Assembly: GCF_038630985.1 (NCBI RefSeq)
Contig: NZ_CP152049.1
Span: 500,001 to 564,000 of the forward strand
Reading direction: 5' to 3'
DNA length: 64,000 bases
DNA from: Paenibacillus sp. FSL H8-0548
GTDB taxonomy: Bacteria > Bacillota > Bacilli > Paenibacillales > Paenibacillaceae
Positions 109-56,072 of this stretch are shown here, one piece after another. The notes under the pieces are model-generated. The model saw nothing but the letters and a program-made list of their open reading frames with translations. It had not been told where the DNA came from and did not search any database. How positions within the stretch are numbered: the stretch's first letter is position 1; each line of letters starts with the position of its first letter. The position numbers and the translations under genes are program-made.

Positions 109-294
109 TAGATGGAATTTCTCCCGCTAAAATAACGTTATTCGCTTCGCAGTATGAAATAGATGGAATTTGTCCCGTTAATTCTACTGTTTCTCCTGGA
201 TTTCGGCTGATTCCTTGGAATTAGATGGAGAAATCCCATCTAGATGCCAAAACAAGCTAAAATTCCTTAAATTTAGATGGAGAAATTCCATCTA
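109..294. repeat. Family A four-arm palindromic element, copy A1
   Basis: 186 bp. The outer left arm TAGATGGAATTTCTCC at 109-124 is the reverse complement of the outer right arm at 279-294. A second left arm begins at 160 (TAGATGGAATTTGTCC) and a second right arm ends at 242, so the inner arms sit 51-52 bp inside the outer ones. A second copy (A2) lies near 3.5 kb. No reading frame is plausible inside it. Confidence 0.85.
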
Positions 295-306
295 TATCAG
301 TTGAAC

Positions 307-405
307 CAAGGTGAAACGGCTGTCGCCGTCCTTTGACGGCGCCAGCGCGTTTCATTACGAGAACTATAGAGAAAGTATGGCGAAATGATATACTGTCCTA
401 TATTT
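307..405 (-). repeat. Family B double-hairpin repeat, copy B1
   Basis: About 99 bp, inverted relative to the other B copies. On the minus strand it reads an AT-rich hairpin that starts with AAATATAGG and then a GC-rich hairpin GAAACGCGCTGGCGCC...GACAGCCGTTTC, ending in ACCTTG. It directly abuts element A1. Confidence 0.8.
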
Positions 406-428
406 TTGAAAAATGCAGTGTAAGCGAA

Positions 429-577
429 GCGAGAAGATCGTTCTGGAGAAACGAAGTGTTCGCCTTTGCAGCCATATTCTTACCTTTAAATGTCTTAGGA
501 AATCAAAGAATCTGGCTGCAACCGCGATCGTAAGAATGATCTACTCGCGAAGCGACCCTTCAGAATGATCTTCTCGC
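429..577. repeat. Nested inverted repeat downstream of the kinase gene
   Basis: GCGAGAAGATCGTTCTG at 429-445 is complementary, with one G-T mismatch, to CAGAATGATCTTCTCGC at 561-577. Inside it GCAGCCA at 468 faces TGGCTGC ending at 519, flanked by ATTCTT and AAGAAT. The structure lies just past the stop of the minus-strand kinase and may fold in its mRNA tail. There is no clean U tract, so calling it a terminator would be speculative. Confidence 0.6.
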
Positions 578-585
578 GCAGCTCC

Positions 586-1971
586 TTACAAAAAAATATA
601 AATACTTGTGCCGGCTTCGCTGCTGTCCATGCGCCAGTCGAGCTTCATCTCCTTGAGAAGATAATCGACGATGGCAAGTCCAATGCCATAGCCACTGCTG
701 GAAGAATGATCGGAAAGCCCCGTGCCATGATCACGAATTATGATGGCTGCTCGCTGCTGCTGTGTCTCCACCGTTATCCCAATGAAGCTGCCGTCTGCTG
801 CATGTCGGGTCACATTTTGAAACAAATTATCCAGTACCCGGCGGAATCCCGCTTTATCAACCTCTCGCAGCATCGGACCGCTAGGAAGCTCAATCTCGGC
901 AGCAATACCTTCCTGCTCCCAGAGCGGATACCAGGCTGCGGCGCTTTCGCGCACCAAGCGAAGTAAATCTACCTGCTCAAGTTTGAGCGGATAACGACCA
1001 CTGGTCATTAGCGTGTAGGAGAGCAGGTTTTCAATCAGACTGTCGATACTGGAAATTTTTTGTTCTAATTGCACGATAGAAGCTTGCCCGCTTGCGCTGA
1101 GGGCCTCCTTCTTCATAGAGTAAAGATGGCTGTTCATAACAGTTAACGGCGTACGCAAATCATGAGATAGGTTGGCGATGAGCCGCTTGCGAAGCGCTTC
1201 CTCTGCCCGCTCTCGCTCATTGCTGTCCCGCAGCTGCACGACCATGTCGTTGAAGGCCAGCTCCAGCTGTCCGATTTCATCTTGCTTCTTCAATATAATG
1301 GGCACTGGCAACCCGTTGTCTCCATGCAGTGTCATCGCCGTCTGCAAACCAAGCAGCCGCTTGCGGATGCTGCGGAAGAAAAGCAGGGATACCAGGAAGA
1401 AGAAGGCCAGCATCAGAAATAAGAATGCAATATAGAAAGGCGTCCCTGAGCCAATCGGCTGCTCTAGCTGGATAATAGAGCGCGGCAGCTGCATGACCAT
1501 GAAGGCTGGACCGGCATGATCAGCTCCAAGAAAGGAGACGATTGTGAAGGGATCACTGCCAGTGCTATCCTTCATAAACTGAATGGCGGCTGCGGCATTC
1601 CAATGCTCTGGCAGCTGTTCCTGCTGCGGGAGCTGCAGCCTAGATGAGCCAGCTGCATCAACCCAGAAGAAGGAGGCCTCTGGATAGCTCTCCTTCAGCT
1701 CTTGCAGCTTGCTGTCGATGAGAGCGCCATCCGTGTTGTTCAGCTGTTTGGCTTGTTCATGCCACATCGCCGTAATCTCGTTGCTGCTTCCATACTTTAA
1801 ATAGTTGGAATCATTGTGAGGTGCATTTTCTTGGATGATAATATACAGAATGGAAGCCAGCGGGAATATAATCGGGATAAATAAAAAGGCAAATAGGATG
1901 ATCAACAGGTAGCGGGACAATAAGGTTTGGCGAAATCTCAAACCTTTAGAGCGCTGCTTGAGGCTTTTCAT
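586..1971 (-). CDS. Sensor histidine kinase, two-component
   Basis: 461 residues. A transmembrane helix at about 21-46, an extracytoplasmic region of some 130 residues, a second helix at about 180-199, and a HAMP linker lead to a HisKA domain with the phospho-acceptor His270 in LSHDLRTPL. The HATPase_c domain follows, with an N-box around DNLFQNVTRHA and the G boxes DHGTGLSD and GYGIGLAIV. The ATG overlaps the stop of the response regulator gene by 4 bp (ATGA type), so the two are translationally coupled and should be partners. The sensed signal cannot be read from the sequence. Confidence 0.93.
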   Translation of the reverse strand: MKSLKQRSKGLRFRQTLLSRYLLIILFAFLFIPIIFPLASILYIIIQENAPHNDSNYLKYGSSNEITAMWHEQAKQLNNTDGALIDSKLQELKESYPEASFFWVDAAGSSRLQLPQQEQLPEHWNAAAAIQFMKDSTGSDPFTIVSFLGADHAGPAFMVMQLPRSIIQLEQPIGSGTPFYIAFLFLMLAFFFLVSLLFFRSIRKRLLGLQTAMTLHGDNGLPVPIILKKQDEIGQLELAFNDMVVQLRDSNERERAEEALRKRLIANLSHDLRTPLTVMNSHLYSMKKEALSASGQASIVQLEQKISSIDSLIENLLSYTLMTSGRYPLKLEQVDLLRLVRESAAAWYPLWEQEGIAAEIELPSGPMLREVDKAGFRRVLDNLFQNVTRHAADGSFIGITVETQQQRAAIIIRDHGTGLSDHSSSSGYGIGLAIVDYLLKEMKLDWRMDSSEAGTSIYIFL

Positions 1972-2642
1972 GCGCGTACCCGATAGCCGATGCCGCGTAC
2001 GGTCTCGATAATTTCCGGTGCTGCGGGGTTTTTCTCGATTTTCTCCCGTAGATATCGGATATGTACCATGAGCGTTTTATCTCCCTCGATGAAGGCTTCT
2101 CCCCAGACTCCCTCATAAATTTGTTCTTTCGTCAAAATTTGCCCCAAGTGGCGCAGCAGATAGCTGAAAATATGAAACTGCTTGCCCGTAAGTGGAATTT
2201 CTTCTCCCGTCTCTCGGTTTTCGATGCGGTTTTGCTGCTCATGTACAAGCAAGTGCTTAATGGCTAACGGCTCAGCATTTCGCGAACCTGTACGGCGGAG
2301 CAGCACCTCGATACGAGCAGTTAATTCATCGGGATGAAAGGGTTTCGTAAGGTAATCGTCTGCGAACTGCAAGCCTTGCAGCTTATCATCGATCGATGTA
2401 CGGGCAGAAAGCATAAGAATCGGAATATCCGGTGCAGCCTTCTTAAGCCGCTGTCCGATTGTAAAGCCGTCAAGCCCTGGCAGCATAACGTCCAAAATAA
2501 CGAGTCTGCAGCCAGCTGCAGACAGGACCGCTCCTTCGCCGCTTTTTTGCCAATGAACCTCGTATCCTTGCTCTTGCAAATGCTGACAAACAAAGCTTCC
2601 GATTTCATGATCATCTTCAATATATAACAGTGGTGCATTCAT
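1968..2642 (-). CDS. OmpR/PhoB-type response regulator
   Basis: 224 residues. The receiver domain (1-118) has the acidic pair Glu9/Asp10/Asp11, the phospho-acceptor Asp51 in VILDVMLPGLDG and the conserved Lys in LTKPF. A winged-helix DNA-binding domain at about 130-224 ends in ETVRGIGYRVRA, the usual OmpR-type C-terminus. It is the first gene of a two-gene operon with the overlapping kinase. The ATG is preceded by AAAGGA about 11 bases upstream. The target genes are not evident. Confidence 0.94.
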   Translation of the reverse strand: MNAPLLYIEDDHEIGSFVCQHLQEQGYEVHWQKSGEGAVLSAAGCRLVILDVMLPGLDGFTIGQRLKKAAPDIPILMLSARTSIDDKLQGLQFADDYLTKPFHPDELTARIEVLLRRTGSRNAEPLAIKHLLVHEQQNRIENRETGEEIPLTGKQFHIFSYLLRHLGQILTKEQIYEGVWGEAFIEGDKTLMVHIRYLREKIEKNPAAPEIIETVRGIGYRVRA

Positions 2643-2700
2643 GTTTGAATGATTCCTTTCTTCAATACAATGTATTGGCGAGGATTTCTAATATGGTTCG

Positions 2701-2730
2701 ATTATAAGCTAGAGCTATGAGGATAGCCAA
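2701..2730 (-). promoter_or_regulatory. Probable sigma-A promoter of the regulator-kinase operon
   Basis: On the minus strand TTGGCT (2725-2730) and TATAAT (2701-2706) are separated by 18 bp, about 60 bp upstream of the regulator ATG. This is a pattern match only. Confidence 0.5.
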
Positions 2731-2855
2731 GCGAGGCATAAATTCCTTCTATTCCTACATGCTTAATGAATTGACGATATGAGCTATGCGTTATAGAATG
2801 AATAACATATCTATAAACATTATGCGCGCAATAGAGAGAAAGAAGGTTGAAATGG

Positions 2856-3317
2856 ATGGGAGTATCAGTACAACAGCTGTCGCCGCTCGTGGAGTCGCTT
2901 GGTTTGAAGCAGCATATAGAGGGCGGATGGTACAAGGAGATATGGAAGGCTGGCTTTGAAATACCGCAGGAGGTGCTGGGCGCTCCCTATTCAGGACGAC
3001 GCTTTGCGGCATCCTCTATCTATTTTTTGCTGCACCCGGATGAGTTTTCCGATTGGCACACCGTTTATTCGGACGAGCTTTGGCTATGGCATTCCGGCAG
3101 TCCACTCGTTCTCACTTTAGGAGGAACGGAAGCAGCACCAGAGACAAGAAAAGAAATTATTGTCGGACCGGACGTACTTGCGGGCCATCAGCCGCAGGCG
3201 CTCGTCCCGGCTAATGAATGGCAGATGTCACGTGTGCTGGGCGATGAGCCTGTACTCGTTTCTTGTGTCGTAGCACCAGGTTTTCATTACGATGATTTTA
3301 AACTGATAAAGCGTTAA
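2856..3317 (+). CDS. Cupin-fold protein of the DUF985 family
   Basis: 153 residues from the ATG at 2856. AAGAAGG at 2840-2846 sits at a proper distance from this ATG, whereas the TTG at 2847 directly abuts it and is unlikely to be used. The sequence has the DUF985 pattern: HIEGGWYKE near the N-terminus, SSIYFLLHPDEFSDWHTVYSDELWLWHSG in the middle, and a C-terminal VAPGFHYDDFKL. The fold is a small double-stranded beta barrel; the family's biochemical role is not established. It stands alone and is followed by a terminator. Confidence 0.88.
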   Translation: MGVSVQQLSPLVESLGLKQHIEGGWYKEIWKAGFEIPQEVLGAPYSGRRFAASSIYFLLHPDEFSDWHTVYSDELWLWHSGSPLVLTLGGTEAAPETRKEIIVGPDVLAGHQPQALVPANEWQMSRVLGDEPVLVSCVVAPGFHYDDFKLIKR

Positions 3318-3333
3318 TTATACATGATGCAGA

Positions 3334-3382
3334 AAGAGCCATCCAAGGAGGGATTATCCCTCATCGGATGGCTCTTCTATAT
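3334..3382 (+). terminator. Rho-independent terminator after the DUF985 gene
   Basis: AGAGCCATCC (3335-3344) pairs with GGATGGCTCT (3366-3375), with an inner GAGGGAT/ATCCCTC stem and a T-rich tail. Confidence 0.75.
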
Positions 3383-3452
3383 TATGATGCCTGCCTAATG
3401 CCAGTAGTACGCTAAGCTGCTCTTGGGCTCAGTATAATAAATTCAATGAATC

Positions 3453-3637
3453 TAGATGGAATTTCTCCAGCTAAAATAACATTATTCGCTTGGCCCTAGG
3501 AAATAGATGGAATTTCTCCTGTTAATTTCACTGTTTCTCCTGAATTTCGGCTGATTCCTTAGAATTAGAGGGAGAAAATCCATCTAGATTCCAAAAAAGG
3601 CTAAAATTTCTTAAAATAGATGGAGAAAATCCATCTA
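3453..3637. repeat. Family A four-arm palindromic element, copy A2
   Basis: 185 bp, closely similar to A1 along its whole length. TAGATGGAATTTCTCC at 3453-3468 faces GGAGAAAATCCATCTA at 3622-3637. The inner left arm is about 50 bp inside the outer left arm and the inner right arm ends about 50 bp before the outer right arm. Substitutions relative to A1 are scattered, so the copies are not a recent duplication. Confidence 0.85.
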
Positions 3638-3773
3638 TATAAGTTGAACTAAAGTTTTAGAAAAGTGTGGTAAGGAAATCGCGACCTGCATGTCGAGTAA
3701 GAAAGAAAATAACTCGAACAGGCAGGGACGAAGTTGGGTTAGTTCGTTTAGGTAATAGCGCGATAGGACGAGG

Positions 3774-3911
3774 CTACGCTGTAGTTTGTACAACGTAATC
3801 GACGTTACTTGCCTGACTCGATACGTACACTGTAGTTTGTGCAATAGATTGCCTAGTATAGGGCGGTATTCGTTGGTTTGGAGCTCATTCTCCTGCAAAA
3901 ATACATTGTAG
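3774..3911. repeat. Family E element, short copy E2
   Basis: 138 bp. GTAGTTTGT occurs at 3781 and again at 3832 (51 bp apart), each within a CTGTAGTTTGTRCAA arm. The right end TGCAAAAATACATTGTAG (ending 3911) is the inverted outer arm. Against E1 near 42.4 kb it lacks about 50 bp, the size of one arm-to-arm interval. A 98-codon reading frame across it on the minus strand has no support. Confidence 0.65.
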
Positions 3912-4002
3912 CCATCTAAAACAGCTCTCATGTGAGGTTTCTAGTGTACAAAGTGCAGTCTAGGCTGCTTCACCTTAGAATCATAGTATATTTGGCAACA
4001 GG

Positions 4003-4037
4003 AAAGAGATCGTAGTCCAGCGGGATTACGATCTCTT
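4003..4037 (-). terminator. Terminator after the GGDEF gene
   Basis: AGAGATCGTA and TACGATCTCT (4005-4014 and 4027-4036) form a 10-bp stem. On the minus strand a short T-rich run follows it. Confidence 0.65.
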
Positions 4038-4043
4038 GGTTAG

Positions 4044-5705
4044 CTAAGAGGTAATATAGCGGTTTTTTCCTTCATGCTTCGCTTGGTACAGCGCTCGGTC
4101 AGCTACAGTAAACAGCTCATCCTGAGATAGAGGGGAATCGGGCTCCCACGTTGCTGAGCCTAGGCTGATCGTTACAAAGGGGATGTCGGTTTTTTCTGCG
4201 TGAGGGATCTCTAATTGTGCGACTGCTTCAAGAAGCCGTCTTGCAATGGTAGTGGCGCGCTCCTTGCTCGTCTGCGGCAAAATAATGCCGAATTCCTCTC
4301 CGCCGTAACGGGTAACGATATCAAGCGGTCGTTTTAGGGTATTGCGCATAGCTGCGGCGATCTGTCTTAGACATTCGTCGCCTTTTTGATGTCCGAAAGT
4401 ATCGTTATAGGCTTTGAAGTTATCGATATCGCCGATCATCAGCGTAACGGGCATATGGTGGCGATGAGCATCCTCCCACTCATTGTTCCATATTTCATCG
4501 AAGGAGCGGCGATTGGCAATGGTCGTTAGTTCATCCACATGGGAAAGCGCATGCATCATTTGATATTGCTCAAGCATTTTGAGTTCAATTTCTTTGCGTG
4601 GAGTAATATCTCTAGATACGGATACGATAGTTTGGGTACGATCGCCGTCGTGGAGGACGACGCGAGTGGTGGATTCGAACCAGCGATAGACGCCATCCTT
4701 GCGTTTTATACGGTACGTAATCGTATTCTCATCGACATGGTTATAGATCTGATTTTGGTTATCGAGCACACGCTGCTTATCATCGGGATGGTAGAAAAGA
4801 ACAGGTGATTTCCCAATGAGCTCATGATCCCGATAGCCAAGCAGCGCATAGCAAGCAGGAGAGACGTAGGTATATAGACCGTCAAAATTATGCTTGGAGA
4901 TCATATCGCTGGAGTTCTCAGCAAGCAAGCGAAAGCTCTTCTCGCTCTCAAGCAGCTTGTCGGCCGTACGCTTCCTCTCCGTAATTTGGCGAAAATGAAT
5001 AGATAATCCGAATTCGGAAGGGTAGACATTCGCTTCAAACCAATGATTCAGCTGCGGAATAAACTGCTCGTAAAGCCGCTGCTCATGATTCTCCATAGCA
5101 ATCTTATACTCACGCTGGCTGATGGTGCCCTTAAGCCAAGGGAACACCTCCCAAATATTCTGACCCAGCAGTTCAGCTTCGCTTCGCTGGAAGAGCTTTT
5201 GCGCAGCATGATTGGTATAGATAAACCGGTACTGGTTGTCGATGGAGAAGAAGGCGTCCAGTATGCTTTCAAGAATGTTGGAAATATGTTTTGTTAACTG
5301 CTTAACTTCAGATAGCGCTGTTGTTTTTTCAGATATATCCATCATCTGTGCAATAAAATATCGCGGGTTGCCGATATCATCGTATACGAGTGATACACTC
5401 AGCATCGTAGTTACCGGATCACCGGATTTCTTGAGATAGTTTTTGTGCAGTTGGAAATTGTCTATTTCGCCTTTAAGCAGACGTTCCATAAGAAGCTTGT
5501 CCTTGCCTATATCGTTCGGATGGGTAATCTGCGAGCAGGTTTTGGTGTAAAGCTCATCTTCCTCATAACCTAGCATGGCTAAAGCAGCCGGGTTAACGAC
5601 TATGATCGTACCATCTAAATCAATTAAAGACATGCCGATAGGCGCAAAATGGAAAGCGTTGCTGAAAAAATCGGCTTCACGGGTCGTTTTTGGAATCAAG
5701 GTCAA
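4044..5705 (-). CDS. PAS-PAS-PAS-GGDEF diguanylate cyclase
   Basis: About 553 residues starting at TTG 5705, which has GGAAAGG 8 bases upstream; a TTG 27 bp further up lacks a site. Three PAS domains (about 10-125, 145-255 and 255-375) precede a GGDEF domain (about 385-550). The active-site signature reads RYGGEEF, a functional GGEEF form. RPLD, five residues before it, fits the RxxD inhibitory I-site. No membrane helix is visible, so it should be a cytosolic c-di-GMP synthase controlled by ligands bound to the PAS domains. It is a single-gene unit. Confidence 0.92.
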   Translation of the reverse strand: MTLIPKTTREADFFSNAFHFAPIGMSLIDLDGTIIVVNPAALAMLGYEEDELYTKTCSQITHPNDIGKDKLLMERLLKGEIDNFQLHKNYLKKSGDPVTTMLSVSLVYDDIGNPRYFIAQMMDISEKTTALSEVKQLTKHISNILESILDAFFSIDNQYRFIYTNHAAQKLFQRSEAELLGQNIWEVFPWLKGTISQREYKIAMENHEQRLYEQFIPQLNHWFEANVYPSEFGLSIHFRQITERKRTADKLLESEKSFRLLAENSSDMISKHNFDGLYTYVSPACYALLGYRDHELIGKSPVLFYHPDDKQRVLDNQNQIYNHVDENTITYRIKRKDGVYRWFESTTRVVLHDGDRTQTIVSVSRDITPRKEIELKMLEQYQMMHALSHVDELTTIANRRSFDEIWNNEWEDAHRHHMPVTLMIGDIDNFKAYNDTFGHQKGDECLRQIAAAMRNTLKRPLDIVTRYGGEEFGIILPQTSKERATTIARRLLEAVAQLEIPHAEKTDIPFVTISLGSATWEPDSPLSQDELFTVADRALYQAKHEGKNRYITS

Positions 5706-5772
5706 TCGTCGCACCTTTCCGGCTGTCCGCAAGTCAATGACTTACGGACAGCTACTGTTGCTAGAATAGGCA

Positions 5773-6600
5773 TTATACGGTGAATGCACCAACGGATGCT
5801 TTCACCAGTGCTATAAATTTTGGTCTTGCTTGCTCAGCAACGCGGACGACCTGCTCATGCGTAAGCGGCTCCAGCTCGTCGCCAATTGCCATGTCGGTAA
5901 TACAGGTGATGCCGACTACGCGAATACCGGTATAGTTGGCGGCGATAACCTCAGGAGCAGTTGACATGCCGACGGCATCAGCGCCCCAGCGCGCCATCAT
6001 GGATAGCTCGGCAGGCGTACAATAGGCTGGACCCGAGATGCTGACATACACGCCTTGCTGCAGCTTGATGTCAAGCTCCTGCGCTTTTGCCGCTACGACT
6101 GCACGAAGCTCGCGGTTGTAAGCTTGCGACATATCGGGAAAACGTGGACCAAGCTCTGGCAGGTTCGCTCCCATAAGCGGATTGCTGCCGGTATTGTTGA
6201 TATGGTCGGTAATCAGCATGAGATCGCCTGCAGCGAACGAGCGGTTCATGCCGCCTGCAGCATTCGTAACTAGCAGTGTTTGGATACCCATCTGCTTCAT
6301 AACATAAACGGGGAATACGACCTCTTTCATCGAGTAGCCCTCATAGTAGTGGAAGCGGCCCTTCATGACGAGTACAGCTTTGCCTTCAAGCTGTCCGATG
6401 ACCAGCTCACCCGAATGGCCTTCTACAGTGGATACAGGGAAATGCGGAATATGGCCGTAAGGGATTACGATTGCGTCCTTCACCTCGTCGGCCATAACGC
6501 CTAGACCGGAGCCTAGAATAAGCCCGATTTGCGGCTGCTCTTGCAGCAGATTGCGAATGTAGGCCGCAGCTTCATTTATCTTTTCAAGCATATTATCCAT
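5773..6600 (-). CDS. Trimeric purine-nucleoside phosphorylase family, unusual base pocket
   Basis: 275 residues from the ATG at 6600, preceded by AGGAGG; frames that start further upstream run into repeat B2. Family motifs are intact for phosphate and ribose binding: GSGLG (30-34), EGHSGE, RFHYYEGY (82-89), TNAAGGMN (112-119) and VGMSTAPEV. The two residues that normally recognise 6-oxopurines are changed: the Glu of the GP-x-F-E-T segment is Cys194 (GPAYCTPAE) and the Asn of ITN is Asp236 (CITDMA). The reaction should be phosphorolysis of a purine nucleoside, but the preferred base may be a 6-aminopurine. It is divergent from deoC, whose product takes up the deoxyribose phosphate arm of the same salvage. 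Confidence 0.9.
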   Translation of the reverse strand: MDNMLEKINEAAAYIRNLLQEQPQIGLILGSGLGVMADEVKDAIVIPYGHIPHFPVSTVEGHSGELVIGQLEGKAVLVMKGRFHYYEGYSMKEVVFPVYVMKQMGIQTLLVTNAAGGMNRSFAAGDLMLITDHINNTGSNPLMGANLPELGPRFPDMSQAYNRELRAVVAAKAQELDIKLQQGVYVSISGPAYCTPAELSMMARWGADAVGMSTAPEVIAANYTGIRVVGITCITDMAIGDELEPLTHEQVVRVAEQARPKFIALVKASVGAFTV

Positions 6601-6627
6601 AGTCGTTGAACCTCCTAAGGTTTGTGA

Positions 6628-6726
6628 AAATATAGAGAAAGTATATCCTTTCTCTATATTTTCTCTATATTTCTCCGGAATGAAACGCGCCACCGCCATA
6701 AGGACGGCGACAGCCGTTTCACCTTG
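6628..6726 (+). repeat. Family B double-hairpin repeat, copy B2
   Basis: 99 bp between the phosphorylase start and deoC. Left hairpin AAATATAGAGAAAG...CTCTATATTT, right hairpin GAAACGCGCCACCGCC...GGCGACAGCCGTTTC, ending in ACCTTG. It begins 28 bp upstream of the phosphorylase ATG, so it may lie in that gene's 5' leader. Confidence 0.85.
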
Positions 6727-19992: not shown

Positions 19993-20616
19993 CTAGAGCA
20001 ATGAAATGACCAGCAGCTCATAAAGGATGAGCGGGAGTACGGTGTTATACGAATTCATGAAGGCGCGAGGATCGCGCAGCGTACATTCCAGATATAAGAC
20101 ACAGTGATCGATGTGCATAATTCTTCCTTCATAGACATGACCATCGACCATTTGGACACAAACATACTTATGAATATGTCCACCGCACATATTCATTACG
20201 CGGTCACGGACCTCCATGACCATAGCGGTATGCTGCGGCTCGGCCTGATAGAGAAGCGGAGCCGCTTTTGGCATGCCCATCGGCCCTGCATTCGCCATGC
20301 CCACCGGGCCAGCATTCGGCATGCCCATCGGGCCAGCATTCGCCATGCCCATTGGACCTACGTTGGGCGTGCCCATCGGTCCAGCGTTGGCCATGCCCAT
20401 TGGACCTACGTTCGGCGTGCCCATCGGTCCAGCATTCGCCATGCTCATTGGACCTACGTTCGGCGTGCCCATCGGCCCAGCATTCGCCATGCCCGTCGGT
20501 CCGGCGTTCGACATGCTGCCCAGATTGCTCGTATTCGGCATATTGCTCATCCCGGCTGCATTCGGCGCATTGCCCATGTTTCCGATGTTACCCGTGTTCA
20601 TCATATTTTCAGCCAA
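19993..20616 (-). CDS. Met/Gly/Pro/Asn tandem-repeat protein, spore-surface candidate
   Basis: 207 residues from TTG 20616, which has GGAGGT 7 bases upstream; the ATG at 20631 overlaps that site. Residues 1-30 are Asn/Met/Gly-rich. About five 16-residue tandem units follow (consensus MANAGPMGTPNVGPMG), a 48-bp minisatellite at DNA level. A non-repetitive C-terminal domain of about 85 residues (VRDRVMNMCGGHIHKYVCVQMVDGHVYEG... in pieces) has Cys and His residues and a hydrophobic end. I do not know the family. Neighbouring Mn catalase and Cys-rich genes suggest a coat or surface role; this is inference. Confidence 0.75.
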   Translation of the reverse strand: MAENMMNTGNIGNMGNAPNAAGMSNMPNTSNLGSMSNAGPTGMANAGPMGTPNVGPMSMANAGPMGTPNVGPMGMANAGPMGTPNVGPMGMANAGPMGMPNAGPVGMANAGPMGMPKAAPLLYQAEPQHTAMVMEVRDRVMNMCGGHIHKYVCVQMVDGHVYEGRIMHIDHCVLYLECTLRDPRAFMNSYNTVLPLILYELLVISLL

Positions 20617-21206: not shown

Positions 21207-21240
21207 GAGCTGTCCCAGCTAACTCTGGGGCAGTTTTTTT
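21207..21240 (+). terminator. Terminator after the Cys-rich gene
   Basis: CTGTCCCAG pairs with CTGGGGCAG (one G-U pair) around CTAACT, followed by seven Ts. Confidence 0.85.
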
Positions 21241-21318
21241 GTTGTATAGGAAACTATGGATTCTCCGAACCTGTTAATAACGATGCTGCTCCAGCAGCCG
21301 GAGAGGGGATAACGAAAG

Positions 21319-21503
21319 CTAACGGAAACCAGAGACGCTAAAGTGCCATTTTTGGTTAGCATCACATTTTAACGGAAGTGGGAGACGCTATTACGCAGAA
21401 ATGAACCGAAATCCGGCATGTAGACTACAAATAGAGGCTCCTGTTTCCGTTAGAATCTTGAAATGAACAATAAAGGCGATTTAGCGTCTCTGGTTTCCGT
21501 TAG
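21319..21503. repeat. Family C four-arm palindromic element, copy C1
   Basis: 185 bp. A perfect 24-bp terminal inverted repeat (21319-21342 and 21480-21503, starting CTAACGGAAACCAGAGACGC). The inner left arm begins AACGGAAGTGGGAGACGC at 21371, 50 bp inside; the inner right arm (GTTTCCGTTAG) ends at 21453, 50 bp inside the other end. Confidence 0.9.
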
Positions 21504-21589
21504 AGGTCCGAGCTGACGCGTCTGCGATGTGCAATCACCTGTAAGGGTGATTTTGTTCTTTGGGAAACTATGGATTTTCCGAACCTGTT

Positions 21590-21636
21590 GATAACGAAAG
21601 CTAACGGAAACCAGAGACGCGAAAGTTCCATTTTTG
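21590..21636. repeat. Family C half element, C2
   Basis: Only the left outer arm with its flank is present (CTAACGGAAACCAGAGACGC at 21601), preceded by the same GATTNTCCGAACCTGTT sequence as C1 and C4. The other three arms are absent. Confidence 0.75.
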
Positions 21637-21717
21637 CATAGAACAAAGGCGGCGGCAGCACGAGCTCTGCTGTTACAGTCAATCATAAGAATGAGCAGGA
21701 GTAGTAGTAGTAGTAGG

Positions 21718-21915
21718 CTATCCTGCACATTTGCAGGGTAGCCTACTCTTTTTAATGGTTTAGGAGAGCTATCCTGTACGTAAGCAGGATAGCTGCCCAC
21801 AATGGAGATCAGATGGCTGGAAATGAGCTGAAATGACGAGCTATAATGCGTGAATACAGGATAGGTTAGCTAGAGCGTCCCAATAGTGTGAAGTTACTGC
21901 AAAAGTGCAGGATAG
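21718..21915 (-). repeat. Divergent inverted family D element, D5, with adjoining hairpin
   Basis: On the minus strand CTATCCTGCACTTTTGCAGTAACTTC begins at 21915 (given in part as the D arm), a second CTATCCTG arm begins at about 21864, 51 bp on, and the closing hairpin CTATCCTGCTTACG...CAGGATAG ends at 21769. A further hairpin CTATCCTGC...GCAGGGTAG lies at 21718-21741. The span from 21915 to 21769 is about 147 bp, shorter than D1-D4. Confidence 0.65.
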
Positions 21916-22085
21916 CTTCCGCGCTGGGAGTAGGGGAAGGGAGGATTTGAGAAGCGGCATCGAGCGTAGGGAAAGTTGAGGAAAAAGACGATGTGCGTGT
22001 GTGAGTTTTGTGAAGTATATGGGGGGATATACAAACATGCCTAGAACAAAGGCAGTGCCAGCAGTCGGAGTGCGGATAATGAAAG

Positions 22086-22270
22086 CTAACGGAAACCAGA
22101 GACGCTAAAGTGCCATTTTTGGTTAGCGTCACATTTTAACGGAACAGGGAGACGCTATTTCGCAGAAATGAAGCGAGATCCGGCATATAGGGGACAAATA
22201 GAGGCCTGTGTTTCCGTTAGAATTTTGGAATGAAAAATAAAGGCGATTTAGCGTCTGTGGTTTCCGTTAG
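22086..22270. repeat. Family C four-arm palindromic element, copy C3
   Basis: 185 bp, the same length as C1. Left arm 22086-22109 and right arm 22247-22270 are complementary with one mismatch (CTGTGG for CTCTGG). Most of the interior matches C1. Confidence 0.9.
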
Positions 22271-22374
22271 AAGTGTGAGCTGGAATAAAGGGCAGAATCA
22301 CAGCAGAGGGATGGGGCACATAGTATAGAGGAGTGAGAGTCCGAAAAAAATGAACAAGCAAAGAGGGGATATGG

Positions 22375-28410: not shown

Positions 28411-28466
28411 AAAAAACAGCAGGTAGAGCCACGCGTATAAGCGAGTGCTCCACCTGCTGTTTTTGT
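28411..28466 (+). terminator. Strong terminator after the exporter gene
   Basis: AAAAACAGCAGGT pairs perfectly with ACCTGCTGTTTTT; the intervening bases include GAGCCAC..GTGCTC. Confidence 0.88.
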
Positions 28467-28468
28467 TG

Positions 28469-28566
28469 AAATATAGGAAAGTATATCATTTTGCGATTCT
28501 TTCTCTATATTTCTCCGGAATGAAACGCGCCACCGCCATAAGGACGGCGACAGCCGTTTCACCTTG
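28469..28566 (+). repeat. Family B double-hairpin repeat, copy B3
   Basis: 98 bp. AAATATAGGAAAGTATATC...TCTATATTT and GAAACGCGCCACCGCC...GACAGCCGTTTC, ending ACCTTG. Its second hairpin is identical to that of B2. Confidence 0.85.
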
Positions 28567-40605: not shown

Positions 40606-40649
40606 TATATGGGAAATTATGGATTCTCCGAATTTGTTGATAACGAAAG

Positions 40650-40834
40650 CTAACGGAAGCCAGAGACGCTAAAGTTCCATTTTTGGTTAGCGCCACATTT
40701 TAACGGAAGTGGGAGACGCTATTCCGTTAAAATGTGGCGAGATCGGGCAGGTAGGGTACAAATAGAGGCCCGTGGTTCCGTTACAATTTTGAAACGAAAA
40801 ATAAAGGCGATTTAGCGTCTGTGGTTTCCGTTAG
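40650..40834. repeat. Family C four-arm palindromic element, copy C4
   Basis: 185 bp, the same length as C1 and C3. Outer arms 40650-40673 and 40811-40834. The middle has changed: CCACATTTTAACGG on the left meets CCGTTAAAATGTGG at about 40724, a new perfect inner hairpin. Confidence 0.9.
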
Positions 40835-40898
40835 AAGTGTGAGCTGATGCGTCTGCGATTTCTAATCACCCGTAAGGGTAAATTTGTTCTGTTTTTGA

Positions 40899-40995
40899 AA
40901 ATATGGAGAGTATATCATGTCACCATTCTTCTCTATTTTTCTCGGAATGAACCGGCTGGCGCCGCCAAAGGACGGCGCCAGCCGGTTCATCTTAG
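40899..40995 (+). repeat. Family B double-hairpin repeat, copy B4
   Basis: 97 bp. The right hairpin has GAACCGGCTGGCGCCG and CGGCGCCAGCCGGTTC, a perfect 16-bp stem, where other copies have GAAACG...CGTTTC. Both strands of the stem changed together. Confidence 0.85.
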
Positions 40996-42385: not shown

Positions 42386-42573
42386 CTACAATGTAGTTTG
42401 TGCAACGTAAACCTGACATAGGAGCCACGTTTGAGAGCTACGCTGCAGAAATGCACTAGAATCAGCGTGAAAAGCCCCTTAGCGCCTCGAAAACGCTAAA
42501 AGTATTGTAAAAAGTGCAGCGTAGGGCGATCAGCGTGAGCCAAAGCGGCTATTCCATTGCAGAAAGTGCAATG
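42386..42573. repeat. Family E four-arm element, copy E1
   Basis: 188 bp between etfB and etfA. Left outer arm CTACAATGTAGTTTGTGCA (42386), inner left arm CTACGCTGCAGAAATGCA (42438, 52 bp on), inner right arm AAAAAGTGCAGCGTAG ending 42524, outer right arm CATTGCAGAAAGTGCAATG ending 42573. The spacing follows the same plan as families A and C. Confidence 0.75.
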
Positions 42574-51678: not shown

Positions 51679-51693
51679 AGGGGGAGAGCATGA

Positions 51694-53484
51694 ATGGAAC
51701 CGCTCGGTCCGCAAGACCCGATTGCGCCCAAACAGTCGTCTGCCGAAGCCGAAGAGCTCGCACGTCCATGGCTTCGTCATTACCCGGAGGAGATTTCTCC
51801 TTCGCAGAGCTATCCCGATCAGAGTATCGTCGAATTTTTAGTCCATGCAGTGCAGAGCTATCCTAACCATACGGCCGTTCATTTTCTTGGCAAAACGCTA
51901 ACCTACCGCAAGTTGTATGACGATGCGCTGCGGCTTGCCTCTAGTTTATGGAATCTTGGCATTGCCAAAGGGGATCGTGTGGCGATTATGCTGCCGAACT
52001 GCCCGCAGGCGGTTGTCACTTATTATGGCGTGCTCCTTGCAGGGGGCATTGTTGTACAGACAAATCCACTATATGTGGAGCGTGAGCTGGAGCATCAACT
52101 TAAGGATAGTGGAGCTGTAGCCATCATTACGGTCGATTTGCTGTATGCCCGTCTATCTCGAGTCCGCGGTGAGCAGCCCGAGGAAGGTCCGCTCCCGAAG
52201 CTGCGTCATGCGATTATCACATCCGTAAAAGATGGATTGCCGTTTCCAAAAAACCTGCTCTATCCGCTTAAGCAGCGCAAGGAAGGGTTTCGAGCCGACA
52301 TCCCTTATGGCAGCCATGGCGTAATCGGCTATAAAAAGCTGCTGGCAACGAAGCATCCATCCGCGCAGCTGCCAGCGCATGCCAAAGGAGAAGAGCTGGC
52401 TGCGCTGCAATATACGGGAGGTACGACCGGAACACCTAAGGGCGTCATGCTGACGCATCGGAACCTTGTGGCCAATACGATGCAAATCTCTGCTTGGTGC
52501 TATAAGGCGGAGGATGGGAAGGAGCGCTTCCTCGCTGCGCTGCCTTTGTTTCATGTGTTTGGATTAACGGTATTAATGAATATGTCGGTTCTGAAATCAG
52601 GAACGTTAATTCTTCTTCCCCGCTTCGAAGTGGAGACGGTGCTCAAAACAATCAGTCAGCAGAAGCCGACGATTTTTCCAGGGGCACCGACGATGTACGT
52701 TGCGCTCATTCATCATAAGGCTGCTGCGAAAACAGACCTATCTTCAATTAATGTATGTATAAGCGGCTCCGCTGCGCTGCCGCTTGAGGTGCAGGAGAGG
52801 TTCGAAGCGTTGACTGGCGGCAGACTCATTGAAGGCTACGGCTTGTCAGAGGCTTCACCTGTCACACATGCGAATCCCATATGGGGGAAGCGCAAAATCG
52901 GAACGATCGGCGTCCCAATTCAAGATACGGAAGCTGCTGTTATTGATTCGGAAACCGGGGAGAGGCTCGGGATAGGCGAGCTGGGCGAGCTTATCGTTCG
53001 CGGGCCTCAGGTCATGAAGGGATATTGGAATAAGCCAGTGGAGACCGAGCAGGTGCTTCGTGATGGATGGTTGTATACAGGCGATCTTGCGATGATGGAT
53101 GAAGAGGGTTATTTTACAATTATGGATCGGATTAAGGATGTTATTATTGCAGGTGGCTTTAATATCTATCCGCGTGAGGTAGAAGAGGTGCTATTCGAGC
53201 ATCCAGCAGTACGCGAAGCAGCGGTTGTGGGTGTAAAGGATGAATACCGCGGCGAGACGGTAAAGGCTTTTATCGTATTCAGGGAGGGCTGGCAGGTATC
53301 GAGCAATCAACTGGACAACTGGTGCCGAGAACGGCTTGCTGCTTATAAAGTACCACGTCACTATGCTTTTAGGGAAACGCTTCCAAAAACGATGGTCGGC
53401 AAGGTGCTTCGTCGAAAACTGCAGGAGGAAGAGGCAGAAGCGGCGGAGAAGCGGGGGGCAGAGAGCCAGGGAGAAGGAGAGTGA
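51694..53484 (+). CDS. lcfA: Long-chain fatty-acid CoA ligase
   Basis: 596 residues, 15 bp after fadE with GGGGGAG. ANL superfamily: P-loop YTGGTTGTPKGVMLTHRN, GYGLSEASPV, YTGDLAMMDEEGYFTIMDRIKDVII and the adenylation Lys in KTMVGKVLRR. It activates fatty acids with ATP and CoA before oxidation. The last 20 residues are Glu/Ala-rich. The gene could be lcfA or lcfB; neighbours favour a fad role. Confidence 0.93.
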   Translation: MEPLGPQDPIAPKQSSAEAEELARPWLRHYPEEISPSQSYPDQSIVEFLVHAVQSYPNHTAVHFLGKTLTYRKLYDDALRLASSLWNLGIAKGDRVAIMLPNCPQAVVTYYGVLLAGGIVVQTNPLYVERELEHQLKDSGAVAIITVDLLYARLSRVRGEQPEEGPLPKLRHAIITSVKDGLPFPKNLLYPLKQRKEGFRADIPYGSHGVIGYKKLLATKHPSAQLPAHAKGEELAALQYTGGTTGTPKGVMLTHRNLVANTMQISAWCYKAEDGKERFLAALPLFHVFGLTVLMNMSVLKSGTLILLPRFEVETVLKTISQQKPTIFPGAPTMYVALIHHKAAAKTDLSSINVCISGSAALPLEVQERFEALTGGRLIEGYGLSEASPVTHANPIWGKRKIGTIGVPIQDTEAAVIDSETGERLGIGELGELIVRGPQVMKGYWNKPVETEQVLRDGWLYTGDLAMMDEEGYFTIMDRIKDVIIAGGFNIYPREVEEVLFEHPAVREAAVVGVKDEYRGETVKAFIVFREGWQVSSNQLDNWCRERLAAYKVPRHYAFRETLPKTMVGKVLRRKLQEEEAEAAEKRGAESQGEGE

Positions 53485-53486
53485 CC

Positions 53487-53924
53487 GTGAGCGGCAAGGA
53501 AGAGGAGTGGTTTGTTCAACAGGCAGATCAGGCGGGGCACTTGATTAGACTTGCCGAGCGCGCACAAGCTACCTTCTGGGGCGTGCTCGGCTGTGAGGTG
53601 GTGCAGGCAAATGCGAGTAAAGCGACGATTTGTTTGGATGCCTCGGATCGGCATTTGAATCTGCTGGGCATCGTGCACGGGGGTGTGCTTATGTCGCTGC
53701 TCGATAATGCGATGGGGCTCGTCGTTATGCTCGCGGCACCGGAAGAGCGTACCGTAACAGCGAATTTGAACACGCAGTTTCTCTCCAGCAGCAAGGGAGG
53801 TGTGCTGCTATGCGAGGCGGAGCTTGTACATCGAACAGCGCGGACCCTTACGCTGCAAGCACAAATTAAAGACGACTCTGGCAAGCTTCTAGGTTTAGGC
53901 AGCGGAGCATATCGTATTATTTAA
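53487..53924 (+). CDS. PaaI-type hotdog thioesterase
   Basis: 145 residues from GTG 53487, 7 bases after GAAGGAG; a GTG at 53481 would overlap the ligase stop. The hotdog signature IVHGGVLMSLLDNAMG carries the HGG motif, followed by TANLNTQFLSSSKGG. It hydrolyses acyl-CoA and may relieve CoA trapping during beta-oxidation. Last gene of the cluster; its stop codon lies within the first bases of repeat B5. Confidence 0.9.
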   Translation: MSGKEEEWFVQQADQAGHLIRLAERAQATFWGVLGCEVVQANASKATICLDASDRHLNLLGIVHGGVLMSLLDNAMGLVVMLAAPEERTVTANLNTQFLSSSKGGVLLCEAELVHRTARTLTLQAQIKDDSGKLLGLGSGAYRII

Positions 53925-54023
53925 AATATAGGAAAGTATAAGTTTCACACTTATACTCTGCCTATATTTCTGGAATGAAACGCACTGGCGCCGCCAAAGG
54001 ACAGCGATAGCCGTTTCACCTTG
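53923..54023 (+). repeat. Family B double-hairpin repeat, copy B5
   Basis: 101 bp. Left hairpin AAATATAGGAAAGTATAAGT faces ACTTATAC...CCTATATTT, a longer and different loop end than in other copies but still paired. Right hairpin GAAACGCACTGGCGCC...GCGATAGCCGTTTC. Confidence 0.85.
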
Positions 54024-54165
54024 AGCGAAAGCAGCGCTCATTTGCTTGCATGTTATAGATTGGATATAATAATGGATAATAAATGGAAAGTTTGATGCTT
54101 TGGAGATTTATTAATATTTGACGGTTTTATGCCGATAAATGTAATAAGAGAAGGGAGGCGAGGAC

Positions 54166-54393
54166 ATGGTGCAAGTGCCGGGATGGGTAACGACATTAGT
54201 TTTAGGGTTTGGTATCGTAGTTGCGGTTATTGGCGTGATTGCCTATTTAAGAATGTTTCGTAAAGACAGGCTATCTTCACACTCTCATCAAGCAGCCGAT
54301 GTCTCGCCTCCAAACGTGATTACTCCAGTAAAGCCAACGGATAGCGGACATATAAAAGAAGCAAAACCCGAACAAGCTATGCCGCGAGATTAA
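54166..54393 (+). CDS. Single-pass small membrane protein
   Basis: 75 residues with GGGAGGCGAGG before the ATG. One helix (TTLVLGFGIVVAVIGVIAYLRMF) with a short outer end, then a hydrophilic cytosolic tail rich in Pro, Lys and Ser. No family recognised. Confidence 0.7.
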   Translation: MVQVPGWVTTLVLGFGIVVAVIGVIAYLRMFRKDRLSSHSHQAADVSPPNVITPVKPTDSGHIKEAKPEQAMPRD

Positions 54394-54574
54394 TAATTGT
54401 TCACTTTCTTATTCCATATCGAAATGTTATAATAGTAAGAAAAATGCGAACATTGTGACTCATTGGCCATGGAGTTACCTGCACCGAATGGGGGTTCTTG
54501 CGGTGTAATTACCGCATGCGGTCTCGTATAATACTGTTTAGGACGACCATCCAACGTAAAGGGAGGGAGATTTC

Positions 54575-54763
54575 ATGGCGAAGCATAGCCAGAATGAAGT
54601 CAAGGAAAGCCTGAAAGAACTCACGAGAATTTTTCAACCCAAGGACCCGCGTAAGTTTGTTAAAGAGTATATTCGCAAGTATCGGATTACCGGTGGCTAC
54701 GAGGATGAATTGACGACTTTGGTAGAAAATGAATTAGGCAGGATTAACTCTTCGGTCAGTTAA
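54575..54763 (+). CDS. Small basic hypothetical protein
   Basis: 62 residues with a strong site (AAAGGGAGGGAG). Predicted helical, charged (KESLKELTRIFQPKDPRKFVKEYIRKYRI). Not recognised. A TATAAT at 54527-54532 upstream lacks a good -35 partner. Confidence 0.65.
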   Translation: MAKHSQNEVKESLKELTRIFQPKDPRKFVKEYIRKYRITGGYEDELTTLVENELGRINSSVS

Positions 54764-54942
54764 ACTCATCATGTGAAATATGGCTTTGTAAACTGTCTTC
54801 GGCAGGATGCAAAGTCTTTTTGTTTTTTAGTAACAAATGTTGCCGAGGCTATTGCTCTCCACTAAAACATTACTAAGCAGCATCGCTTCACGCCGTATCA
54901 CCCAACTAACTCCTCCCAACTCCCCTAACCTCCGCATGCAGG

Positions 54943-55131
54943 CTATCCTGCACATTTGCAGTAACTTCGCACTTTTCAGCCTCTCCGAGCTGCCTATCCT
55001 GCACATATGCATTAGAATAGGCAGGTTTCAGCTAAATTAGCTCCAATGGGGGGTGTCTATAGTGCGCGCGTATAATATAGACACATGGGAGCTAGAAAAA
55101 CCAGCTTCTATCCTGCGAGAGTGCAGGATAG
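54943..55131. repeat. Family D element, copy D1
   Basis: 189 bp from CTATCCTGCACATTTGCAG (54943) to the closing hairpin CTATCCTGCGAGAGTGCAGG ending 55131. A second CTATCCTGCACATATGCA arm begins at 54994, 51 bp on. Confidence 0.82.
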
Positions 55132-55327
55132 CGCCATAGTTGAGTTAGTTGGAGATAACGGCGGAAGGTTAGTCTAGGATAGTCGTAAATTCACTCCGAG
55201 CACGAGCCTCGCTTCCTCCGCACGCAGGCTATCCTGCACATTTGCAGTAACTTCGCGCTTTTCAGCCTCTCCGAGCTGCCTATCCTGCACATATGCATTA
55301 GAATAGGCAGGTTTCAGCTAAATTAGC
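54994..55327. repeat. 334-bp perfect direct repeat, first copy
   Basis: Read base by base, 54994-55327 equals 55650-55983, 656 bp further on. It holds the latter part of D1, the spacer and the first half of D2. Confidence 0.85.
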
Positions 55328-55416
55328 TCCAATGGAGGCGTCTATAGTGCTGGCGTACAACATAGATACATGGGAGCTCGAAAAACCAGCTTCTATCCTG
55401 CGAGAGTGCAGGATAG
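55229..55416. repeat. Family D element, copy D2
   Basis: 188 bp. Arms CTATCCTGCACATTTGCAG at 55229 and CTATCCTGCACATATGCA at 55280 (51 bp on); closing hairpin ends 55416. Confidence 0.82.
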
Positions 55417-55598
55417 CAACGGAGTGTTGATAGTTGGAGGCTGGAGGTATGTTGGTTGTATGATGGATGGATGTTGGATGTAGATATGTAAATGGGTTGT
55501 GAGTTAACATAGCGCGCGAACCGATGTATTATCGACGCTGTGCAGCACTACCACACTCAAGATCACGCAATCTCTACCCATAACTTCCACACGGCAAC

Positions 55599-55787
55599 CT
55601 ATCTTGCACATCTGCAGTAACTTTGCGCATTTGAGTAACCTAGAGGTGGCTATCCTGCACATATGCATTAGAATAGGCAGGTTTCAGCTAAATTAGCTCC
55701 AATGGGGGGTGTCTATAGTGCGCGCGTATAATATAGACACATGGGAGCTAGAAAAACCAGCTTCTATCCTGCGAGAGTGCAGGATAG
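55599..55787. repeat. Family D element, copy D3
   Basis: 189 bp. The first arm is diverged (CTATCTTGCACATCTGCAG at 55599), the rest is identical to D1 from 55650 on. Confidence 0.82.
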
Positions 55788-55983
55788 CGCCATAGTTGAG
55801 TTAGTTGGAGATAACGGCGGAAGGTTAGTCTAGGATAGTCGTAAATTCACTCCGAGCACGAGCCTCGCTTCCTCCGCACGCAGGCTATCCTGCACATTTG
55901 CAGTAACTTCGCGCTTTTCAGCCTCTCCGAGCTGCCTATCCTGCACATATGCATTAGAATAGGCAGGTTTCAGCTAAATTAGC
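55650..55983. repeat. 334-bp perfect direct repeat, second copy
   Basis: Identical to 54994-55327. Flanks on both sides are related but diverged, so conversion or recent duplication of part of an older tandem pair is likely. Confidence 0.85.
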
Positions 55984-56072
55984 CCCAATAGGGGCGTCTA
56001 TAATGCGGGCGTACAACATAGTCACCCGAGAGGGCATTAAATCAGCCGCTATCCTGCATGAGTGCAGGATAG
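55885..56072. repeat. Family D element, copy D4
   Basis: 188 bp. First half equals D2; second half diverged (AGGGGCGTCTATAATGCGGG), closing hairpin CTATCCTGCATGAGTGCAGG ends 56072. After D2 and D4 come related tails (about 55417-55555 and 56073-56235) with ATGTTGNATGTA-like runs and GTTAACATAGCGCGCGAACC. Confidence 0.8.

Follow-up and report, generated by a model that had tools for sequence, protein, structure and literature searches.

The intergenic palindromes of 185 to 189 bp in the window, a 64,000-nucleotide stretch of Paenibacillus sp. FSL H8-0548 (NZ_CP152049.1, positions 500,001 to 564,000), share a four-arm plan whose spacing is kept across genera of the Paenibacillales, and we consider that they are probably DNA elements of four like recognition sites for a putative dimeric DNA-binding protein. 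An earlier note on this DNA had proposed binding sites for a tetramer, a folded RNA or the substrate of a transposase acting in trans. Of these, binding sites occupied by a multimeric protein agree best with the data; the spacing constraint on which the note had built its interpretation also stood, while the folded RNA was not supported.

Sequences of families A, C, D and E were read and folded at the positions listed below together with the larger and partial units around them, and all four families are indeed four-arm units of 185 to 189 bp in which the second arm lies 50 to 52 bp inside the first.

109..294, + strand: family A unit 1, 186 bp, arms at 109-129, 160-180, 222-242 and 274-294
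3453..3637, + strand: family A unit 2, 185 bp, offset 51, top four-arm score (110/126) of a 464-kb scan
21245..21558, + strand: larger C unit around core 1, made of a left module, the core and a right module; the left module starts TATAGGAAAC, directly 3' of a terminator T-run, and the right module ends with a terminator-like hairpin (GGGTGATTTTGTTC)
21319..21503, + strand: family C core 1, 185 bp, offsets 50/50
21601..21644, + strand: truncated copy of family C, covering only model positions 1-44
21716..21917, no strand assigned: D-like four-arm unit, offset 51, total length 202
22086..22270, + strand: family C core 2, 185 bp, whose outer left module differs
40606..40889, + strand: larger C unit around core 3, with a short left module
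40650..40834, + strand: family C core 3, 185 bp
42386..42573, + strand: family E unit, 188 bp, nearly single-copy, left arm again 52 bp inside, inner right arm ending 49 bp before the right end
54943..55131, + strand: family D unit 1, 189 bp, offset 51
55229..55416, + strand: family D unit 2, 188 bp
55599..55787, + strand: family D unit 3, 189 bp
55885..56072, + strand: family D unit 4, 188 bp

The mirror-image inner right arm that the earlier note had described for A, C and E is present in these families, but it is not restricted to them, as both the alignment and the four-arm scan find one in D. Likewise, the palindrome is real but is not the whole element: flanks are conserved too in C, A and D, and the repeated unit is therefore longer than the palindrome. 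Family E is a four-arm unit, but its palindrome is weak and it is nearly single-copy, with an E-like unit in another species (locus L260). The lack of common sequence between families holds for whole units but not for their arms, most of which are palindromes of about 21 bp with TA at both ends, the E right arm being an exception. An arm is an imperfect palindrome, in which two half-sites flank a 7-bp middle, and the commonest arm class reads TAACGGA, 7 bp, G[AC]CG[TC]TATT. Among open reading frames of at least 90 aa, only one, a mechanical call at 21450-21800 on the minus strand, overlaps a unit over a substantial stretch.

Arm spacing was then examined with scans that left it free. A first detector, which allowed any arm offset between 35 and 70, returned 12 palindromes in the window, some of them overlapping, compared to 1 in one dinucleotide shuffle, and placed the A, C and D units mostly at offsets 50 to 52. 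A second scan compared all four arms, with the offset (40-62) and the total length (160-210) free, in 464 kb of the source genome consisting of the window and 20 evenly spaced 20-kb samples. Fifteen places were found, and none in two shuffles, at offsets 50 (4 places), 51 (10) and 48 (1), the last inside a 24-bp tandem repeat near 20270; the family E unit was absent from the 15. With 14 of the 15 places at 50-51, the spacing does not show the free variation that the earlier note had named as speaking against it. In the genome as a whole, the family C arm had 80 forward and 79 reverse matches (0 and 0 for a reversed control pattern), family D had 76 matches, some partial, family A had 18 at 17 places, several partial, and family E had a single full copy besides 8 partial matches, all weak. 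Length was exactly 185 in 38 of the 40 extracted C copies and 184 in two, 188 in 19 of 22 D copies and 189 in three, and 183 to 186 across 9 A copies. In copy sets that required at least 150 aligned bases, so that large deletions are omitted, the C core carried 499 substitutions and 2 indels, compared to 417 and 12 in the modules that flank it (Fisher p 0.005); the corresponding counts were 484 and 3 in D and 266 and 1 in F, a relative of C. Family A had 7 indels against 117 substitutions, and its length is thus not rigid.

Family C also sits within a unit of about 320 bp placed after terminators. Apart from three of 40 copies without a recognizable left module, this larger unit followed a terminator in 29 of 37 copies, compared to 8/200 and 10/111 in controls. 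With the replichore border at 3.8 Mb, as determined from GC skew, 81 of 82 C copies were oriented along replication, the 82 being what was left of 86 rows after removal of three double listings and of 6092279+ (3 mismatches, against the bias). The same ori-to-ter orientation was seen in B (16/17) and Rep1 (7/8), counted with one match kept per 40 bp; for RVT_1, 9 of 10 rows were used, one being below the cut-off. One such orientation for all families was rejected, given D at 50/74 (74 of 76 rows, two short ones omitted) and A at 10/17 (17 of 18 rows, a reverse self-match omitted).

A sequence-only profile of families C and F had matches in 240 of the 392 genomes of the order, from 38 of 49 genera, including the source genome (G000) and G030, which match by construction; the other 152 genomes had no match at the cut-off used. 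In a sample of the phylum, it matched 6 of 398 genomes, all in the source genome's family. Searching with the arm pattern while leaving the left offset and the inner gap free gave 80 named loci, all from Paenibacillaceae. The left offset was 50 in 85 of the 93 units recovered in this way, i.e., 73/81 outside Saccharibacillus and 12/12 within it, and the inner span was 83 in 74/81 of the former and 92-93, about one helical turn longer, in 11/12 of the latter. A motif-blind four-arm scan of the 80 loci of other genomes, themselves chosen for carrying the arm pattern, returned 88 matches, of which 79 had offset 50 and 82 lay at 50-51 (0 matches in one shuffle); among them were arms resembling those of A (L237, L232) and of E (L260), which are outside the search pattern. 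Weaker matches in other genomes ranged from about 176 to 195 bp. The choice of loci by profile or arm motif is biased toward intact arms and the modelled length. When left and right half-modules were counted separately, 292 of 293 had a partner at 176-199 bp, the exception lying at a locus edge. Phage and plasmid carriers gave no match to family C, the arm pattern was absent from viral contigs, and an exact search of genome contigs with a C arm gave no match. Taken across genera and arm classes, the free-offset scans support the reading of conserved spacing as a constraint well past this window; A, D and E are tied to C and F by their plan more than by their sequence.

The arms of one element were alike in direct as well as in inverted comparison. 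Identity of the 7-bp middle within compared to between elements was 0.565/0.456 for L1-L2, 0.590/0.450 for R2-R1 and 0.527/0.438 for L1-R1. At five syntenic pairs, the inner half-site, which is not part of the search pattern, had changed at 23 of 180 positions compared to 146 of 455 in the spacer (p 3e-7), while the arm middle (39/140) was no different from the spacer. These pairs are few: five of six were counted, with L250/L277 forming one side of a triangle, out of 20 candidates of which 14 were unused as overlapping or repeated loci of one genome or for HSPs of 68-76% with unclear synteny; the unused pairs include L173/L174, which was left out of the count, and L169/L172, with lengths of 185 and 186. 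The element was on both sides of the syntenic pairs, in loci chosen for carrying one.

A structure of folded RNA or single-stranded DNA, with the arms paired as long stems or as four hairpins, would agree with the strong folding of single copies (-55 to -84 kcal/mol) and with the perfect hairpins formed by some R1 arms of A and D. Complementarity was in excess for arm pairs, most of all for the outer mirror pair L1:R1 (z 5.1, compared to 2.8-3.9 for the others), an excess that pairing would also produce and that counts to this extent against the four-site reading. Counts of G-T and A-C pairs in the mirror register were 323 and 190 in C, 159 and 120 in D and 35 and 24 in A, an excess of G-T that was reversed in F (39 and 128). 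However, double compensatory changes showed no excess over shuffles (C 1/1.7, D 5/4.3, F 2/1.1, A 3/1.3), so the stem covariation on which the earlier note had suggested judging the units is no greater than chance, and single changes to G-T or A-C gave an inconsistent strand preference (C 19/10, D 37/29, F 8/10, A 4/6). Neither the hairpins of single arms (z -0.9 to 0.4) nor the spacers (z -0.1, in 45 non-redundant of 59 units) covaried, and arms agree as direct repeats as well. Rfam had 0 matches in the window and 3 in 18 loci (two purine riboswitches and one pan), none of them on a unit. Since compensatory changes are not in excess, the arms resemble direct repeats, spacers and hairpins do not covary and no Rfam family matches the units examined, the RNA option raised earlier is disfavored, and a paired structure seems improbable to us.

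The main rival is a MITE without target duplication. The units would be non-autonomous elements with two transposase sites per end, like inverted repeats that contain direct repeats, the four sites being paired by a transposase supplied in trans, and the exact length would be the imprint of the synaptic complex. Like MITEs, the units have terminal inverted repeats and lack coding capacity, and their tens of copies per genome and near-identical local tandem arrays resemble mobile DNA, which weighs against the four-site reading. Their placement between genes is also expected of such elements; of the 56 units classified out of 65, 22 had a convergent gene neighborhood, 32 a tandem and 2 a divergent one. 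Divergent genes thus flank only 2 of 56, and regulation of the promoter type was rejected. On the other hand, the target duplications that the earlier note had proposed to look for were found at no tested offset in 115 flank pairs, with maxima not above those of 20 permutations. No longer, gene-bearing version was present around the 293 half-modules in the fetched loci, and no partner lay at kilobase distance. DNA beyond the arms is conserved in C, A and D, and a mariner-like element with TA as its target duplication was rejected on the conservation past the TA and because duplications of 4, 5, 6, 8 or 9 bp were absent from the 115 flank pairs. The constraint on half-sites at syntenic places likewise runs contrary to a MITE. 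Mobilization of the HUH/IS200 type was rejected as well, Y1_Tnp having 0 matches in the source genome when 5 of 14 control genomes were positive. The transposase substrate of the earlier note keeps a place, short of duplications, a longer version and a Y1 enzyme within these respective samples, and we regard the MITE-like reading as rather unlikely. With still less probability, the arms could be core sites of a site-specific recombinase with a variable 7-bp crossover, in an invertible or integrating cassette. The half-sites do surround an unconstrained 7-bp middle, and in the orthologous pair L277/L282 the segment between the inner arms is inverted with the outer parts unmoved. However, this inversion is the one clear case when 163 pairs that agree in their outer parts are compared; four more were flagged, of which three stem from symmetry within L216 and the fourth is weak. 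Inner inversion was therefore rejected as a mechanism, and the fetched loci hold no deletion derivatives between direct arms. Template switching easily yields short inverted repeats and could have left functionless quasi-palindromes as a by-product, an origin that we find hardly credible when shuffles give 0 matches and different genera and arm classes agree in how the arms are spaced.

In the four-site reading, each element presents four arms at fixed distances, 50 bp from first to second, about 83 bp end-to-end for the inner pair and 50 bp again, and a putative dimeric DNA-binding protein occupying all four would form one looped or wrapped complex. Helical phasing rather than base pairing would be kept, because the four occupied sites would build a single complex. 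The arm classes (C/F, A and D/E) lie on the same scaffold as if read by related proteins of different specificity, and copies spread as dispersed or tandem repeats and, once in place, are apparently kept by selection, which would imply a function for the host. More tentatively, and with the balance of our judgment against it, these elements might amount to a chromosome-wide system of the Paenibacillus lineage, with tens of elements per genome, each one an intergenic complex of fixed geometry, in interchangeable specificity classes and with copies under selection. If so, this would be a lineage-specific element that organizes the nucleoid or acts as an insulator, served by a DNA-binding protein family of its own. 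An intergenic element of base-pair-exact architecture, present in 240 of the 392 genomes sampled from the order, suggests a DNA-binding protein not yet described, and would imply either a new chromosome-organizing system or an unusual transposition machine.

Judged on titles and abstracts among the matches listed, the literature describes no such element. In Tc1/mariner transposons with IR/DR ends, such as Sleeping Beauty, each end carries two like transposase sites, inverted at the other end. The paired like sites are shared with our units, which differ in having no transposase gene inside, in a four-site unit of only 185 bp and in the conservation of DNA past the TA in C, A and D. Compared to REPs and BIMEs, the units are likewise short, palindromic, extragenic and repeated in many copies; REP units are 20-40 bp and, in E. 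coli, are described as gyrase targets in the relevant passages of PMC3733652. Here, however, four sites lie in a 185-bp unit at fixed spacing, and the partner of REPs is a RAYT (Y1), whereas Y1_Tnp has no match in the source genome. Group IIC introns insert directly after intrinsic terminators with a strand bias, according to the part of PMC8919778 that treats insertion, and both traits recur in the larger C unit, the sole part compared. Nonetheless, that unit has a 5' start other than the GTGCG of group II introns, and Rfam finds no group II intron RNA in the window while real introns do match. As outlined in the passages concerned of PMC3733652 and, for the size of bcr1, PMC2267715, bacterial MITEs (bcr1, RUP, NEMIS and ERIC) resemble the units in size, terminal inverted repeats and non-coding nature; here, in contrast, no target duplication was found, the inner arms repeat the outer ones and the geometry is fixed over many genera.

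The four like arms of each unit (L1, L2, R2, and R1, ~21 bp each, from outer left to outer right) had been claimed to keep a conserved spacing, and this claim was borne out by a motif-blind scan in which four 21-bp windows were compared as L1, L2, inverted R2, and inverted R1. The arm offset (distance from L1 to L2) was left free between 40 and 62 and the total length between 160 and 210, yet across 464 kb of the Paenibacillus sp. FSL H8-0548 genome (the window plus 20 evenly spaced samples) the offset, rather than varying freely, was 50 or 51 in 14 of the 15 places above threshold; two dinucleotide shuffles gave none. The sole place at offset 48 sits inside a 24-bp tandem repeat, and family E (offset 52) fell below the threshold. 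The inner span (inner arm pair, end to end) varied more than the offset, being 83 in A and C, 86 to 87 in D, and 100 in a D-like unit at window position 21716. A 24-bp tandem repeat at window positions 20234 to 20540 overlaps long open reading frames (ORFs).

For other genomes, an arm pattern with the right offset fixed at 50 and the left offset and inner gap as free measures matched at least 119 stretches in the named genomes. The 80 loci among the matches listed all come from Paenibacillus, Saccharibacillus, Cohnella, Fontibacillus, or Paenibacillaceae bins (NCBI family Paenibacillaceae). Their left offset was 50 in 85 of 93 units, and the inner span was 83 in 74 of the 81 units outside Saccharibacillus. 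In 11 of 12 Saccharibacillus units (L224, L248, L273, and others) the inner span was 92 to 93 with the same left offset; this lengthening by 9 to 10 bp is consistent with helical phasing, in one lineage. Scanned in the motif-blind way, these loci yielded 88 matches, 79 of them at offset 50, and one shuffle yielded none. The scan also recovered A-like units with other arms (L237 and L232; offset 51, length 185), an E-like unit (L260; offset 52, length 192), and three offset-54 matches in L263 that look like a different repeat.

The distribution of the elements extends beyond these loci. In a search of relatives that covered 40 genomes including that of FSL H8-0548, six matched family C: besides FSL H8-0548, G030, from another family of the same order, had 27 matches, and four further genomes had 1, 1, 1, and 3. 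In the units of G030 (family F) the arms are spaced by 50 bp and the flanks are mostly unlike. Compared in register, the consensus sequences of C and F are 48% identical (z = 5.7), the remaining family pairs being weak. A sequence-only profile, which models no base pairs, was derived from 13 C and 13 F sequences plus one from G018 (27 in total). At E ≤ 1e-4, with scoring limited to the top six candidates of each genome, 240 of 392 genomes in the order and 38 of 49 genera had a match; FSL H8-0548 and G030 match by construction. In a phylum sample the profile matched 6 of 398 genomes, all from the family of FSL H8-0548, and in one complete genome (G395) it had at least 150 matches, both strands together.

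All units named in the earlier note were found in the window with the reported lengths. In the whole genome, a single 7.35-Mb contig of which the window forms positions 500001 to 564000, family A had 18 matches at 17 places, D had 76 matches, and E had one full copy and 8 weak matches. The C arm pattern matched 80 times on the forward and 79 times on the reverse strand, and its reversed control never; a separate C search scored the best 40 of 90 candidates, and the search behind the D count the best 40 of 81, so that the arm-pattern count and the set of 82 C copies described below are more complete for C. The commonest arm class reads TAACGGA, seven free bases, G[AC]CG[TC]TATT; in families A and D, and in E for most of them, the arms are also TA-bounded palindromes, with different letters. 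A further four-arm unit at ~741355 (L077:1355) has unrelated arms (GATCTA...), offset 51, length 191, and inner span 89. Window positions 21235 to 22340 form a mosaic intergenic block (one full and one truncated C copy, a 202-bp unit resembling D, and another C whose left module differs) in which the core is constant and the outer modules differ. The units are intergenic, 2 of 65 overlapping an ORF call. The neighborhoods of 56 classified units were convergent in 22, tandem in 32, and divergent in 2 cases; for intergenic regions of at least 250 bp in the same loci, the corresponding numbers were 28, 47, and 11.

Length proved rigid in most families. The C core had 499 substitutions and 2 indels versus 417 and 12 in its own flanking modules (Fisher p = 0.005); the values were 484 and 3 for D and 266 and 1 for F, with A less rigid (117 and 7). 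Private substitutions tended to spare the arms: they fell inside them, although the arms make up 47 to 48% of the length, in 71 of 226 pooled cases (single-family p = 0.0002 for C, 0.056 for D, 0.049 for F, and 0.054 for A), a test biased by C and F copies having been found partly via their arms. Syntenic copies offer a cleaner test, read at the inner half-site (half-sites flank the 7-bp arm middle), which is absent from the search pattern. In five syntenic pairs, 23 of 180 inner half-site positions differed versus 146 of 455 in the spacers between arms (p = 3e-7), and 10 of 144 versus 101 of 364 without the profile-chosen pair L180/L203 (p = 5e-8); the arm middle did not differ from the spacers (39 of 140, p = 0.40). 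A length of 185 bp was kept in all six syntenic pairs shown, with L169/L172 (185 versus 186 bp) left out, L173/L174 uncounted, and twelve further candidate pairs omitted because their synteny was unclear or because they repeat or overlap within one genome. Of 293 half-modules in the fetched loci, 292 had a partner, the remaining one lying at a locus edge. In one orthologous pair (L277:1176 and L282:4395), the inner segment is inverted and the outer parts keep the same orientation.

Such constraint could reflect a folded RNA or sites for a multimeric protein, both raised in the earlier note. The former was not supported: double Watson-Crick changes within families numbered 1 in C, 5 in D, 2 in F, and 3 in A, against shuffle means of 1.7, 4.3, 1.1, and 1.3, so that paired changes are uncompensated. 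In a set of 45 diverse units sharing 55% identity on average, all inverted arm pairs were more complementary than expected, namely L1:R1 (z = 5.1), L1:R2 (3.9), L2:R1 (3.2), and L2:R2 (2.8); the larger excess for L1:R1 is the single observation that would also be expected from pairing. However, the middles of L1/L2 and R2/R1, which are unable to pair, agree at least as well, and neither single-arm hairpins (z = -0.9 to 0.4) nor spacers (z = -0.1) showed an excess; the arms therefore vary together as like sites. In mirror register, families C, D, and A have more G-T than A-C pairs, which is not the case in F, and there is thus no consistent RNA-strand signal. Because spacing is fixed, spacers drift freely, half-sites are conserved, and compensatory pairing is absent, the sequences point to a DNA-protein complex, in keeping with the multimeric-protein option. 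Each arm would be bound by one putative dimer, and four such dimers may unite in one looped or wrapped complex.

In FSL H8-0548 the C core is embedded in a ~320-bp unit (window copies 21245 to 21558 and 40606 to 40889), whose left module starts directly after a terminator T-run and whose right module closes with a terminator-like hairpin. A hairpin plus T-run precedes 29 of 37 C copies having a recognizable left module, compared with 8 of 200 for random 60-mers and 10 of 111 for shuffles, and several copies lacking it adjoin a family B repeat ending in a hairpin. Based on GC skew (sign change between 3.64 and 3.98 Mb), 81 of 82 C copies are oriented along replication, including 5 of 38 whose flanking ORF calls are both opposite. 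Family B and the C unit have almost identical starts (ATAGGAAAsTAT). Some C units have a B copy next to them in head-to-tail arrangement, and 16 of the 17 B matches across the 464 kb are oriented along replication. The window copies of B are as follows.

Family B, ~105-bp two-hairpin repeat
6621-6726, B copy
28461-28566, B copy
40899-40994, B copy
53921-54023, B copy
63469-63575, B copy
307-405, minus strand, B copy

A further palindromic repeat family, Rep1 (window 410 to 600), in which A copies are apparently embedded, is oriented along replication in 7 of 8 matches in the genome sample.

One study reports that group IIC introns insert after terminators with a strand bias (PMC8919778). Nine RVT_1 matches exceeded the cut-off in FSL H8-0548, eight along replication, and several of its introns begin directly after terminators. 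One might guess that the C unit is mobilized by such a reverse transcriptase; against this, the larger unit had no intron RNA match and its 5′ start is unlike that of introns, and it may be a terminator-targeting element in its own right. D or A units lie close behind three group II introns (L136, at 432903 to 436526, L138, and L143).

Units behind group II introns
434 kb, D array
950 kb, D unit
4046 kb, A unit

The arrays, the large number of copies, and the expansion by family favor mobility, and constraint in place favors a host benefit; no target duplication was found in 115 flank pairs. MITEs and REP/BIME elements each have one or more defining features that were tested and that these elements do not show. 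This is a real element across much of an order whose plan fits no class tested, and we call the broad kind to which it belongs dispersed intergenic palindromic repeats.
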